Shown here: positions 19,448 to 22,742 of the stretch, in pieces | How positions within the stretch are numbered: position 1 is the first letter of the stretch | How the letters are laid out: every line of letters begins with the position of its first letter | Origin: a bacterium | Lineage (GTDB): Bacteria > Patescibacteriota > Saccharimonadia > Saccharimonadales > UBA4665 | Assembly: GCA_021783725.1 (NCBI GenBank) | Contig: JAJXTN010000007.1 | Location: 1 to 56,946, forward strand | Reading direction: 5' to 3' | DNA length: 56,946 nt | Position numbers and translations under genes: made by a program | Notes under the pieces: model-generated | Database searches by the model: none | Told to the model about the DNA's origin: nothing | The model's input: the letters and a program-made list of their open reading frames with translations, nothing else

Positions 19448-19478
19448 GCTAGGCGACCTCCACTCATAGCAAGTAAAC
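19448..19478 (+). repeat. Shared upstream motif, copy 1
   Basis: GGCTAGGCGAC followed by AGCAAGTAAAC after a diverged middle. The same ends occur at 20541-20573 and, inverted, at 22710-22734. This copy is about 40 bp ahead of the predicted ncRNA start at 19519. Confidence 0.55.
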
Positions 19479-19504
19479 AGCTCTAGTACAGCGTAAGCGT
19501 TTCT

Positions 19505-19670
19505 GGTATAATATAAGTACTGTTTCGTGATGGGCGACCTAGGTCAATTGACCAATAAACGGGCGCATGCCAAGGATAATAGAAGCGAAACAGGTGACTA
19601 CCGATACCAACAGGCGTCACAGACAAACTATGAAGATTATTCATATAAGTCTGTGACGCCTTTTTCTTTG
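19505..19670 (+). ncRNA. Predicted structured ncRNA 1 with promoter and terminator
   Basis: Extended -10 TGGTATAAT ends at 19512, giving a start near 19519. The RNA has a closing helix CTGTTTCG (19520-19527) with CGAAACAG (19586-19593), an internal GGTCAATTGACC palindrome, and ends in a strong terminator GGCGTCACAGAC/GTCTGTGACGCC followed by TTTTT (19613-19665). Expected length is about 145 nt. It matches no RNA class I can identify; it lacks the marks of RNase P RNA, tmRNA or SRP RNA. It ends 48 bp before tRNA-like gene 1 on the same strand. Confidence 0.6.
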
Positions 19671-19713
19671 GCTGGTAATGGGTATTGCACTTTTACATCA
19701 CAATAAGTAGTAT

Positions 19714-19791
19714 GCCCCAGTAGCTCAGCTGGATAGAGCGACGCGTTTGCTAAACCGTAGGTCACAGGTTCAATTCCTGTCTGGGGAGCCA
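19714..19791 (+). tRNA. tRNA or tRNA-like gene 1 (apparent anticodon GCU)
   Basis: The D-arm (GCTC/GAGC, GG in the loop), T-arm (ACAGG-TTCAATT-CCTGT) and encoded CCA are canonical. The acceptor pairs except for G1 opposite A72. The anticodon arm is 18 nt instead of 17: ACG-C-GT pairs with AC-CGT only if one C is bulged two pairs below loop TTGCTAA, giving anticodon GCU (Ser), yet the variable loop is only 5 nt, unlike normal tRNA-Ser. A -35/-10 pair (TTGCAC, TAGTAT) at 19685-19713 abuts the first base. Functional identity is uncertain. Confidence 0.65.
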
Positions 19792-19805
19792 ACAAGGCCA
19801 GTGCC

Positions 19806-19847
19806 TTAAAAGTAAAAGACCCCGAAGGGTCTTTGACGCGTTTGCTG
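19806..19847 (-). ncRNA. Predicted antisense sRNA 1 against tRNA-like gene 1
   Basis: On the minus strand an extended -10 TGCTATAAT (19862-19854) would start an RNA near 19847. It begins with AGCAAACGCGUC, perfectly complementary to 12 nt of the anticodon arm of tRNA-like gene 1 (19740-19751), and then forms a terminator AAAGACCC-TTCG-GGGTCTTT followed by a T-rich tail. Length is about 42 nt. It is convergent with the tRNA gene, starting about 56 bp beyond its 3' end. Confidence 0.55.
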
Positions 19848-20071
19848 AATCCAATTATAGCAAACGCATATTAAAAGTACACGTCAAAATGACGATGTGC
19901 TAGTTCAAAATATCTTAAATTAAATGAATATATGTAACACCCAAGTACTCACAAAGTTACTTAAACGAGTTTGTCTTTCGCTACAACTTTCGAGAAATAG
20001 CTATTTATCCGATTCTTTTGGAACGGGATAACACGCATTCTTATTAAGTTTCTTGAATAGTTTTTTGCTCA

Positions 20072-20473
20072 TCATTTCAATTTTAAAAGCAGTGCAATTA
20101 TAGAAACTAATAGCGCTATAAGTGAGATGACTATAGGGACTACGCTACCTACAACACCTACAAGGGCATTCATGTAATAAGTCCAAGATGATATAAGCTT
20201 TAGACCATCCCCCGTAATACGAACATGCTGCTGGCCGTTGTTATGCTTATAATCTACATACTTGTCATGACTGGCAATCGCGAAGGTCATTCGAGCAATC
20301 GTATCGTCGTAACTATATTTTTTTTGGAATACTTTCTTACAATGCAAAAGTGTTGGCAGCTCACCCCGTTCTGCAAATATATAGGTAGGGTCGTTGGTTT
20401 CATCAAATATAACCTTCACTAATCGCTTCACCCTGACAACATACTTCATGCGCCAAATTATACGCTTCATCAT
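20072..20473 (-). CDS. Hypothetical tail-anchored membrane protein
   Basis: Unrecognised 133-residue protein starting with a strongly basic segment (MMKRIIWRMKYVVRVKRLVK) and ending in one long hydrophobic span (VVPIVISLIALLVSIIALLL) before KLK. The middle has no known motif. GGAG precedes the double ATG. It is divergent from the gene at 20595 across the inverted repeat 20508-20574. Its topology resembles the neighbouring small membrane proteins, suggesting related accessory functions, but none can be named. Confidence 0.55.
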   Translation of the reverse strand: MMKRIIWRMKYVVRVKRLVKVIFDETNDPTYIFAERGELPTLLHCKKVFQKKYSYDDTIARMTFAIASHDKYVDYKHNNGQQHVRITGDGLKLISSWTYYMNALVGVVGSVVPIVISLIALLVSIIALLLKLK

Positions 20474-20507
20474 TCAACTCCAATCAAAAAAACACTCAAA
20501 AGAGTTT

Positions 20508-20574
20508 GGTTACTTGCCATAAGGGGGGGTAGTTGCCACCAGCTAGGCGACTATCCCCTGACAGCAAGTAAACC
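20508..20574. promoter_or_regulatory. Inverted-repeat regulatory element between divergent genes, motif copy 2
   Basis: Two imperfect arms of about 29 bp face each other around ACCAGCTA (20538-20545): the right arm reads GGCGACTATCCCC then TGACAGCAAGTAAACC, the left arm is its near reverse complement (GGTTACTTGCC, GGGGGTAGTTGCC). It lies between two divergent membrane-protein genes, so it is a good candidate for a symmetric operator or divergent promoter. Part of it recurs at 19448 and 22710. Confidence 0.6.
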
Positions 20575-20594
20575 ATTCAGGGTATACTATGCAC

Positions 20595-20999
20595 ATGGCA
20601 AAAAAGACTAAGGCTAGTCGCTTCAAAAGGTGGTGGACTGTCACTAGGAGTGCTCTTACCCCACTACATTCTGACGGGCATACCCCTATGCTGGAACTAC
20701 ATAGAGGTATTGACGTGCGAGACAATGCTTCGTATATTCCTCTCGCCATATTCGATAAGCCAGAGGACGTAGCCCGGCGTAACATAGAAAAACTAGAGGT
20801 GGCGAAACTAGAGCAAGATAGAGACGCGGTAAATAAGAATTTGAGGGCTCAACATAGGTTGATGCTTGCCGCATTAGCCGCCGTTGTCGTGGCAATACTT
20901 TCGTCTATAGTGGCTGTAATTATAGCCTTACATACTAAAGCACCAACAGTTATAATAAAGGGTACTAATGTCAAAGAAACTATTCAAACGACTAATTAA
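20595..20999 (+). CDS. Hypothetical single-span membrane protein
   Basis: Unrecognised 134-residue protein. A basic start (MAKKTKASRFKRWW), a charged middle with a predicted helix (EKLEVAKLEQDRDAVNKNL), and one span near the C-terminus (LMLAALAAVVVAILSSIVAVI, about 94-114). TATACT at 20583-20588 puts the transcript start at or next to ATG 20595, so the mRNA is probably leaderless and an earlier ATG at 20589 is excluded. Its stop overlaps the stop of the convergent transposase gene by 4 bp. Confidence 0.6.
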   Translation: MAKKTKASRFKRWWTVTRSALTPLHSDGHTPMLELHRGIDVRDNASYIPLAIFDKPEDVARRNIEKLEVAKLEQDRDAVNKNLRAQHRLMLAALAAVVVAILSSIVAVIIALHTKAPTVIIKGTNVKETIQTTN

Positions 21000-21847
21000 G
21001 AAAGCGTCACAGCCCGTTCCAAAAGAACAGGGAAAATAGGCTGTAGCCTGTAATTATAGCGAAAAGTAAACTCATCCACATACGACTGTAAGTACTTGGG
21101 CGATACGGCGTGATATGTACCGTCAATAGAGCGTTTTAGTTGCGACCAAAAGCCCTCAATAGTATTTGTGTAGGCGGTACCTCGCACGTACTCCAGTTTT
21201 GAGTGATTAACTGTAGTATGTGAATAGCCACGCCGTCTTAAGGTTTTATACGCTTGCCACTCATCGCTATGTATGTGCGCCCCTTGCGCCACATTGCCTT
21301 CAATTAGCGGTAACAATACCCTTGCACCAGCAGTTTTAACTTTGACTGCTAATGCACGTCCATCTCGCTCAACTGCTCCGAATACGATGCTCTTATTATC
21401 AAACTTATGAGCAAGTTTACGCCTACCGCCGATATAGGTTTCGTCTATCTCTACAATATCGCCATTACCACCTAGCGGATTGTTTTCGCTTTCCATAAGC
21501 AATCGTATTTGTTTTGCCATACGCCAAGCTGTTTTATAGGTAACGCCAAGCGAGCGCTCTAGTTCTTTTGCAGATACACCGTTTTTAGATACTGAAAACT
21601 GGTAAATTGCATAAAACCAGTTCCATAGGCTAGTTTCTGACTTGCGAAATATCGTATCTGCAAGGGGATAAATATGCCTGTCGCACTCTGAACACACAAA
21701 GCCCTTGCGACCTGTGATAGGGTGCCATTTTACGCCTATAACACCACAACGAGGGCAAGTATCGCCGTAGCGGTTTTCTAGTACCGCTAGTAGACAGGCT
21801 TGATCGTCTGGAAACTCTGTCCTGAACTGCTTGAATGTGTATCTCAT
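20996..21847 (-). CDS. IS1595-family (ISXO2-like) transposase
   Basis: DDE transposase of about 283 residues. It has a zinc ribbon (CPRCG...CSECD, about 32-55), a helix-turn-helix-like SAKELERSLGVTYKTAWRM, and the DDE_Tnp_IS1595 domain with EIDETYIGG, HSDEW and NTIEGFWSQLKR carrying the acidic residues. The open frame extends upstream to 21934, but TTGACA-17-TAAAAT at 21883-21855 places the transcript start at ATG 21847, making it leaderless. No terminal inverted repeats were found by eye, and its stop overlaps a cellular-looking gene, so it may be a stranded or domesticated copy. Confidence 0.85.
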   Translation of the reverse strand: MRYTFKQFRTEFPDDQACLLAVLENRYGDTCPRCGVIGVKWHPITGRKGFVCSECDRHIYPLADTIFRKSETSLWNWFYAIYQFSVSKNGVSAKELERSLGVTYKTAWRMAKQIRLLMESENNPLGGNGDIVEIDETYIGGRRKLAHKFDNKSIVFGAVERDGRALAVKVKTAGARVLLPLIEGNVAQGAHIHSDEWQAYKTLRRRGYSHTTVNHSKLEYVRGTAYTNTIEGFWSQLKRSIDGTYHAVSPKYLQSYVDEFTFRYNYRLQPIFPVLLERAVTLS

Positions 21848-21854
21848 TGCTTTC

Positions 21855-21883
21855 ATTTTAGCAAAAATATACTTGCTTGTCAA
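21855..21883 (-). promoter_or_regulatory. Promoter of the IS1595-type transposase
   Basis: On the minus strand TTGACA (21883-21878), 17 bp, then TAAAAT (21860-21855) preceded by TGC. This is close to consensus. The expected start is at or one base before the ATG at 21847. Confidence 0.65.
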
Positions 21884-21996
21884 GGAATATAATAAGGTGT
21901 TACTACTGTACCTTTCTTGTGTGTTTTGAGACATAGCAACCTAGCCCTTTACTGGTTAAAAGGTTGTGTTTAGTTCGTCGCTTGCTATACTAGAAT

Positions 21997-22040
21997 GTGA
22001 CTAGCCTACCAGCCCACTACGCAAATAGTGGGCTTTTCTT
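21997..22040 (+). ncRNA. Predicted antisense sRNA 2 against tRNA-like gene 2
   Basis: Extended -10 TGCTATACT (21983-21991) would start an RNA at about 21997. It begins with GUGACUAGCCUAC, perfectly complementary to 13 nt of the anticodon arm of tRNA-like gene 2 (22109-22121), then forms a terminator GCCCACTA/TAGTGGGC followed by TTTTCTT. Length is about 42 nt. Layout, size and order match sRNA 1. Confidence 0.55.
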
Positions 22041-22071
22041 ATGACTGTTTTTTATTTAGAGTGTCTGTTTT

Positions 22072-22146
22072 TGGTGGAGTCACGGGGAGTTGAACCCCGG
22101 ACTGCAAGGTGACTAGCCTACAATTTTGCCGTTAAACTATATCCCC
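22072..22146 (-). tRNA. tRNA or tRNA-like gene 2 (apparent anticodon AGU)
   Basis: The T-arm (CGGGG-TTCAACT-CCCCG), D-arm (GTTT/AAAT with GG in the loop), 5-nt variable loop and encoded CCA are canonical. The acceptor GGGGATA/TGACTCC has an A-A mismatch and two wobbles. The anticodon stem pairs only with a bulged T two pairs below loop CTAGTCA, which would give anticodon AGU (Thr), rare in bacteria. It could be a divergent functional tRNA, a decaying tRNA or a tRNA-like RNA; the sequence does not decide. Confidence 0.6.
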
Positions 22147-22163
22147 ATAACACGGTCTTGTAC

Positions 22164-22267
22164 GAAAAAAGCCACTAACTCGGATTGCTCAATTTAAGCT
22201 AAATCCTTGTTAGTGGCTGCGTAGTCGCTCGCTCACTCCGGCAAGTTACCGTAAGCGTATTATAACA
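22164..22267 (-). ncRNA. Predicted ncRNA 2 with promoter and terminator
   Basis: Minus-strand extended -10 TGTTATAAT (22267-22259) gives a start near 22252. The RNA of about 88 nt ends in a terminator with arms GCCACTAAC/GTTAGTGGC (22217-22209 and 22179-22171), an inner GGATT/AATCC helix, and TTTTTT. It ends 18 bp before tRNA-like gene 2 on the same strand, the same order as ncRNA 1 and tRNA-like gene 1. The two ncRNAs share little primary sequence. Confidence 0.5.
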
Positions 22268-22321
22268 TAAGCAAGCTGAGTACGGTGATGCTACAATATA
22301 ACCATAAATCTGGAGAACAAT

Positions 22322-22480
22322 ATGAACGATAATAAAGAAGATTTAGACCGATATAATGCCTGGAAACAAGCACAAGAAGCTGAGAGAAAAGAGGAAGGAA
22401 GAGCTATGCTCGCAATCTGGGGGCTCTGGATATGCGTTGGGGTGGTGATTGGTATACCTATCGGAAAGTTTTTACTCTAA
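22322..22480 (+). CDS. Small single-span membrane protein (52 residues)
   Basis: Unrecognised. A charged amphipathic N-terminal half (DLDRYNAWKQAQEAERKEE) is followed by one hydrophobic span (MLAIWGLWICVGVVIGIPIG). GGAG lies 6 nt before the ATG. It is convergent with the next small gene, with 5 bp between their stops. Size, topology and ribosome-binding site argue for a real gene; function unknown. Confidence 0.55.
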   Translation: MNDNKEDLDRYNAWKQAQEAERKEEGRAMLAIWGLWICVGVVIGIPIGKFLL

Positions 22481-22485
22481 GGTGA

Positions 22486-22653
22486 CTACTTTTTATTCCC
22501 TCTATCTCCTATTTTAATGATTATGGCTACTATAATTAAGCACGCTAGTAGACCATAGATGGGTCTATTACCAGAAGCAATGCTATTTAATGTTCCTAGT
22601 ATGACTATTGCTACTAGAACCCACCAGTACCAGCGCATGTTAGGTTTTTTCAT
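22486..22653 (-). CDS. Small two-span membrane protein (55 residues)
   Basis: Unrecognised. A short basic start (MKKPNMRWYWW) is followed by hydrophobic stretches WVLVAIVILGTL and YGLLACLIIVAIII and a charged tail (KIGDRGNKK), giving a hairpin of two spans. AAGAAGG precedes the ATG. An inverted copy of the shared motif (22710-22734) lies about 57 bp upstream in the same orientation as the copy before the gene at 20595. Confidence 0.5.
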   Translation of the reverse strand: MKKPNMRWYWWVLVAIVILGTLNSIASGNRPIYGLLACLIIVAIIIKIGDRGNKK

Positions 22654-22709
22654 ACTTTATCGCCTTCTTTCTTTATAGCTATATCCTATCACTAAATCCC
22701 AGTCGTACG

Positions 22710-22742
22710 TACTTGCTGTCATGGGATAGTCGCCACCAGCTA
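22710..22742 (-). repeat. Shared upstream motif, copy 3
   Basis: On the minus strand GGCGACTATCCC then ATGACAGCAAGT matches the right arm of the element at 20508-20574 with one difference over about 24 bp, and the CCACCAGCTA loop sequence is also kept. The opposite arm is missing. It points toward the minus-strand gene at 22653. Confidence 0.6.

Follow-up and report, generated by a model that had tools for sequence, protein, structure and literature searches.

A transposon-borne module in Saccharibacteria pairs a tRNA-like gene with a predicted antisense RNA against its anticodon arm

Antisense RNAs are known for mRNAs and for plasmid replication primers. In type I toxin-antitoxin systems such as hok/Sok and SymE/SymR, the antitoxin RNA targets the mRNA for a toxic protein, and in the transposon IS10 the antisense RNA-OUT blocks translation of the transposase. 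Anticodons are read by RNA in T-box leaders, which pair with host tRNAs at the anticodon triplet (through the specifier) and at the CCA end and control the downstream gene. To our knowledge, tRNAs with an alanine body and a foreign anticodon, or with the 8-nt loop of a frameshift suppressor, are laboratory or host mutants. In the type VIII system CreTA, the toxin CreT, a small RNA, acts by sequestering a rare tRNA, and its transcriptional repression by CreA requires Cascade (PMC8501985). Here we describe a locus in a 56,946-nt contig of a Saccharibacteria genome (JAJXTN010000007.1 of assembly GCA_021783725.1; hereafter the window) where a tRNA-like gene adjoins a short RNA predicted to pair with its anticodon arm. 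With somewhat better than even confidence, we read the pair as a mobile all-RNA module of IS1595-family transposons, in which a tRNA that may miscode has its anticodon masked by an antisense RNA, most likely as a toxin-antitoxin system.

The sequence GTGACTAGCCTAC occurs on the plus strand at 21997-22009 and again at 22109-22121, and no further site was found in the 843-kb genome with one mismatch allowed. The copy at 22109-22121 is complementary to the 5′ strand and loop of the anticodon arm in a minus-strand tRNA-like gene at 22072-22146, which is called by ARAGORN and scores 39.6 bits against the Rfam tRNA model RF00005 (gathering threshold 29). This gene has a GGGGATA acceptor with G3-U70, A73, an encoded CCA, and a loop, CTAGTCA(C), that can be read as 7 or 8 nt. 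The copy at 21997-22009 is the antisense 5′ segment of a predicted plus-strand small RNA of ~43 nt (21997-22040), which continues into an intrinsic terminator (AGCCCACTA-CGCAAA-TAGTGGGCT-TTTCTT; 22011-22040; fold -14.6 kcal/mol) and is preceded by an extended -10, TTGC-TATACT (21982-21991). The initial annotation had proposed just such a unit, with an exact 13-nt complement to the anticodon arm, an extended -10, and an immediate terminator, and each of these elements was located. On the minus strand, inverted-repeat and fold analysis places another intrinsic terminator directly upstream of the tRNA-like gene (22169-22218), with a promoter-like TGTTATAAT ahead of it (22267-22259).

The pair is carried by a transposon, a point missed in that first reading of the sequence. 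Element B (20546-22734) is a complete IS1595-family transposon with the terminal inverted repeat (TIR) GGCGACTATCCCCTGACAGCAAGTA at both ends (25 nt each, 96% complementary; 20546-20570 on the plus and 22710-22734 on the minus strand), and it is flanked on both sides by ACCAGCTA, a perfect 8-bp target site duplication (TSD; 20538-20545 and 22735-22742). It contains a transposase, three small ORFs, and the RNA pair. The minus-strand transposase (20996-21934) combines the ISXO2-like DDE domain (Pfam DDE_Tnp_IS1595, PF12762, 2e-41) and the zinc ribbon (PF12760, 6.5e-06) by which the IS1595 family is recognized. Its true start is likely at about 21847, behind a promoter of its own that we read as TTGACA (21883-21878) and TAAAAT (21860-21855), beyond the RNA module. 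The small ORFs comprise a 136-aa passenger with a C-terminal membrane segment (20589-20999, plus strand; only a weak DUF7201 match in Pfam) and two membrane-type ORFs (22322-22480 on the plus and 22486-22653 on the minus strand).

A related pair, locus 1, lies in element A (19452-20537), an inverted, non-autonomous IS1595-family relative with TIR-like ends. Its flanks, GCCGGCTA and ACCAGCTA, agree at six of eight positions, a decayed target duplication, and its transposase is reduced to a plus-strand C-terminal remnant (19934-20041; the last 36 codons, residues 277-312, 61% identical by tblastn). Here tRNA-like gene 1 (19714-19791, plus strand) has an Arg-like body, the loop TTGCTAA, and a one-base bulge in the anticodon stem. 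The copy of its arm at 19835-19846 falls within predicted antisense RNA 1 (19806-19848, minus strand), which has an opposing TGC-TATAAT (-10 TATAAT at 19859-19854). A 133-aa passenger ORF follows on the minus strand (20072-20473). Elements A and B have the same order when read from the transposase. The initial annotation had regarded loci 1 and 2 as independent, unrelated sequences that follow one design; the common order stands, but the two are not independent inventions because both reside in members of one transposon family.

Because direct DNA searches of relatives matched only tRNA arms and the transposase remnant, homologous modules were sought through the transposase, in genomes from the host's family (93) and from its order (393), plus extra stretches. 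This identified 13 further Saccharibacteria elements with a module (L060, L063, L074, L075, L080, L114, L115, L117, L118, L119, L122, L136, and L138; L and G numbers are our handles for loci and genomes), or 15 modules with the two window loci, by a route that misses transposase-free copies. In the 13 relatives, the tRNA-like gene lies just upstream of the transposase and the arm copy downstream of the tRNA-like gene. Every one of the 15 has a tRNA-like gene, an intrinsic-terminator hairpin, and an exact 10-15-nt copy of the anticodon arm, usually with an opposing extended -10 of the TGCTANAAT type. Five modules (window element B, L117, L118, L119, and L138) are enclosed by TIRs and a perfect 8-bp TSD. 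Most members come from fragmented draft assemblies, yet the target duplications are exact, which makes an assembly artefact very unlikely as the source of the modules. Many transposase relatives belong to plain insertion sequences that lack the module, and it was not found outside Saccharibacteria in the stretches examined around transposase relatives in a 380-genome sample of the phylum.

To what extent does the copy track the arm? All 15 arms are distinct, with all four bases present at every one of ten columns, and the match between an arm and its own copy is 10-15 nt, against at most 8 nt in the 210 cross pairs. Arm copies of 10 nt or more lie downstream of 15/15 module tRNAs but of 0/94 native tRNAs, whose downstream matches reach at most 8 nt (Fisher p about 1e-18, with the loci treated as independent, although related elements are only partly so). 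Shuffled downstream sequence gave a 10-nt match in about 0.1% of trials. Chance origin of the arm copies is excluded. Pairs of related modules illustrate the same behavior. Locus 2 and L136 have the tRNA body in common and nearly identical terminator hairpins in the short RNA; their anticodon arms differ, and five arm substitutions recur in the copy. In L074/L138 and L080/L118, the arms are swapped and the antisense segments are changed likewise. Independent drift of the two copies in homologous loci, the outcome that the initial annotation named as speaking against it, is the opposite of what is seen, since the copy always follows the arm. The dedicated antisense RNA that it had predicted thus extends to 15 loci with 15 different arms.

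In computed energies, too, the predicted short RNA of every module pairs best with its own tRNA among the 15. For host tRNAs, the energy scan gave antisense RNA 2, that of locus 2, a slightly better score on tRNA-Leu(UAG) (-28.0) than on its own tRNA (-26.5), but the 24-nt query took in the terminator arm and this comparison is hence uninformative. Exact complementarity to a specific partner, covarying across homologs, is what identifies a cis-encoded antisense RNA, and it is found here; the predicted pairing of arm and antisense segment is well supported as a design. The covariation also bears on a DNA-level origin of the copy, as debris of a tRNA pseudogene or the scar of an attachment site, in which case promoter and terminator would be look-alikes. 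Two facts count for such an origin: integration cores often lie in anticodon arms, and the genome has broken tRNA copies at other sites. We nevertheless find it scarcely credible. Promoter, terminator, and spacing have been retained; within TIR/TSD-bounded elements, arm and copy covary across 15 loci; and in no case does a tRNA 3′ half come after the distal copy. The last two observations refute an attachment-site scar as the main explanation.

The short RNA is predicted to be 43-50 nt long, with a free 5′ segment of 11-15 nt, complementary to the anticodon loop plus the 5′ strand of the stem, followed by the intrinsic terminator. As predicted signals, its extended -10 (most often TGCTANAAT-like) and its terminator are conserved. 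Meanwhile, 12/15 modules have a strong intrinsic terminator 7-53 nt ahead of the tRNA, versus 8/36 native tRNAs (p = 0.0003); tRNA expression therefore probably depends on read-through and is weak. In the window, L135, L136, L138, and L074, the leader before the tRNA-like gene has a common motif, similar to CGGTAA..YTTACG..ACGGC, ahead of the terminator; it is possibly a regulated attenuator.

A complementary segment directly before an intrinsic terminator and behind a strong extended -10 could instead make the short RNA the regulated partner, with the tRNA acting as a sensor or sponge, or with arm pairing relieving the terminator of the short transcript in the manner of a T-box. The likeness to a T-box lies in the short complementarity to a tRNA anticodon just ahead of a terminator. 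However, the module RNA covers 10-15 nt of one adjacent tRNA and no gene follows: what lies beyond the terminator is the opposite strand of the tRNA gene and nothing else. An antiterminator alternative is not evident, T-box features are absent, and the Rfam T-box model had no match in the window or in the homologous loci. We consider a regulated short RNA improbable.

Another possibility is repression of the transposase transcript by the antisense RNA, on the pattern of RNA-OUT in IS10, the tRNA then being a by-product. Both cases involve a transposon-encoded antisense RNA near a transposase gene; here the antisense promoter lies between the tRNA and the transposase, and a read-through transcript from the tRNA would be complementary to the antisense RNA. 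Yet RNA-OUT covers the transposase start, whereas the short RNA of the module points away from the transposase and would target a cargo tRNA, at its anticodon arm. Past the module, the transposase is served by a separate TTGACA/TAAAAT promoter, plain insertion sequences of the family do without the module, and conservation follows the anticodon arm rather than the transposase leader. Transposase control is thus, in our judgement, highly improbable, and we return to the reading in which the tRNA itself is the target.

The module tRNAs have the cloverleaf, covarying stems, and CCA of genuine tRNAs. Among the 13 members that parsed well, pairing in the acceptor, anticodon, and T stems reaches 96-100%, far above shuffled partners. 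Anticodon stems are 97% paired with four to six pair types per position, and the acceptor and T stems covary too (up to six); these counts come from parsed stems, the MAFFT alignment of the tRNA-like genes not being structure-aware. L117 and L122 are poorer cloverleaves, and L122 has a poor acceptor stem and is the member without CCA, which is encoded in 14/15. U33 is kept in most loops. By sequence, the window tRNA-like gene of locus 2 is nearest to tRNA-Ala and tRNA-like gene 1 to tRNA-Arg.

What sets these genes apart is the disagreement between body and anticodon. G3-U70 with A73 is present in six module tRNAs, none of which has an alanine anticodon, and the two with alanine anticodons (L074 and L138) have no G3-U70. 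Among tRNAs with non-alanine anticodons, G3-U70 occurs in 6/13 module genes versus 0/75 native ones, and the native tRNAs examined have it only in tRNA-Ala (9/9). G3-U70 is the main alanine determinant, and arginine identity is given by A20 with C35, position 36, and A/G73 (PMC9976931). In addition, L075 and L114 have 8-nt anticodon loops with U33. Module tRNAs with a body/anticodon mismatch or an 8-nt loop would be expected to insert a wrong amino acid or to shift the frame. The bodies of L074, L119, L138, L117, and L122 have no clear amino-acid identity by sequence, so that miscoding need not hold for every module member. G3-U70 bodies with non-alanine anticodons and extended loops recall suppressor and mistranslating tRNAs; unlike those, the module tRNAs recur as cargo within one transposon family, and every one comes with a predicted antisense RNA of its own.

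As for the native tRNA set, tRNA-Ser(GGA) is the only tRNA-Ser found in the genome that holds the window (G000, a 97.8% complete assembly), where genes for Ser-GCU, UGA, and CGA, Ile-GAU, Ala-UGC, and Arg-GCG/ACG were not found; most relatives do show a Ser-GCU tRNA. The same genome has unusual sites adjoining tRNA-Met, Phe, Gln-UUG, and Gln-CUG (L002, L013, L019, and L020), with partial tRNA copies broken at the anticodon loop, hairpin-stuffed tRNA-Gln copies, and a tRNA-Met located within another tRNA, which it splits.

The module genes may be plain tRNAs under antisense control. More specifically, they could be a regulated, harmless tRNA supply for codon usage or suppression, with the antisense RNA tuning the level. 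The retained U33 and intact stems would suit this, as would the GCU loop of tRNA-like gene 1 in an assembly that shows no Ser-GCU, UGA, or CGA tRNA, although the missing tRNA-Ser genes could easily be due to assembly gaps. Against it, bodies and anticodons disagree, the anticodon changes in nearly every copy, L075, L114, and, in one reading, also the window tRNA have 8-nt loops, and a supply gene does not need a dedicated antidote. We therefore hold a supply role to be unlikely and favor a tRNA that is masked because it may be harmful.

The module appears to travel. Similar modules sit on distant branches of the transposase tree (the window with L136; L119 with L074/L138), which indicates that it moves between transposons as a unit. 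Some sister elements have passengers that resemble toxin-antitoxin or nuclease genes (a Panacea antitoxin domain in L138, NYN in L119, and a weak PBECR match in L061), in keeping with cargo that enforces retention. A phage origin was rejected: blastn against phages returned ordinary tRNA genes only, the module-specific hairpin was not found in viral contigs, the transposase search of viral contigs gave no match, and the passenger ORF had no phage match.

Several loci depart from the common arrangement. Upstream of the transposase in L062 (G030), a tRNA 5′ half is fused directly to an arm copy and antisense promoter, which looks like the product expected from deletion between two direct copies. 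At L073 (2050-2323; G009), a tRNA-like gene with a TTC anticodon adjoins a plain insertion sequence, and an upstream promoter-terminator unit on the same strand has a 9-nt complement to its anticodon arm; this is perhaps a rearranged version of the module. L150 (G134 contig 6) has 71-bp tandem repeats that contain a GGGGTGAGACCC motif and adjoin a transposase fragment. Finally, a second, non-tRNA RNA occupies the module slot upstream of the transposase in L059 (about 1384), L061 (about 383), L064 (minus strand), and L135, in the order leader terminator, RNA, convergent terminator unit, transposase. This type II RNA has a conserved hairpin of 10 bp and 9 bp with an asymmetric bulge and ends in UGGCCA. 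It is present in L135, and a tRNA in the sister transposon L136; the slot therefore swaps its RNA cargo. No antisense complementarity of at least 9 nt to the type II RNA was found in sister elements, and we rejected it as an instance of the same antisense design.

We suggest the following mode of action. The tRNA with its altered anticodon arm would be transcribed behind an intrinsic terminator, hence probably at a low level, and the strongly promoted RNA of ~45 nt, encoded convergently just downstream, would be made separately. In the cell, the unstructured 5′ end of this RNA would pair with the loop and 5′ strand of the anticodon arm, open the arm, and keep the tRNA from being used by the ribosome. 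An unmasked tRNA, charged as its body dictates (with alanine via G3-U70, or as an Arg-like tRNA), would read other codons or four bases and poison translation, and the short RNA would be its antidote. Loss of the element, or a shut-off of transcription (for example by phage), would leave the stable tRNA unopposed, and the transposon would become hard to lose, or cells with transcription shut off would die. The proposed toxin role of the tRNA-like gene derives from the mismatch of body and anticodon, and the proposed antitoxin role of the short RNA from predicted pairing energies. At even odds, we propose that these elements constitute an undescribed mobile class of toxin-antitoxin systems, in which the toxin is a tRNA that miscodes, by mischarged codons or by four-base reading, the antitoxin is the arm-masking antisense RNA, and the modules are exchanged among IS1595 transposons of Saccharibacteria while their arms diversify against cross-neutralisation.

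CreTA and type I modules are closest in action, and the module has the defining features of neither. Like CreTA, it would comprise two small RNAs, one probably hitting translation through tRNA and the other neutralising it, with a strong antitoxin promoter and the logic of addiction. Unlike CreTA, its putative toxin is the tRNA itself, its partner pairs with the anticodon arm, and it includes no Cas protein; on inspection, the short RNAs consist of 10-15 antisense nucleotides and a terminator hairpin, with no repeat-like handles such as those of the CreTA antitoxin. It resembles type I systems in its predicted short antisense RNA, which starts with an unstructured segment, ends in an intrinsic terminator, and is encoded next to its target, but that target is a structured tRNA-like RNA without an ORF. 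An antisense RNA dedicated to a bacterial tRNA anticodon arm was not found in a full-text literature search, beyond whose reach lie most subscription papers and preprints. As far as the literature searched shows, no RNA family has been described whose members are each devoted to the anticodon arm of a single neighbouring tRNA.

The module accounts for anomalous tRNA genes that annotation tools label as undetermined in these reduced genomes. If our interpretation is true, the tRNA itself would join the weapons of selfish elements, a transposon would be able to carry a protein-free addiction module, and Saccharibacteria would offer at least 15 tRNA/antisense switches that are orthogonal by nature.
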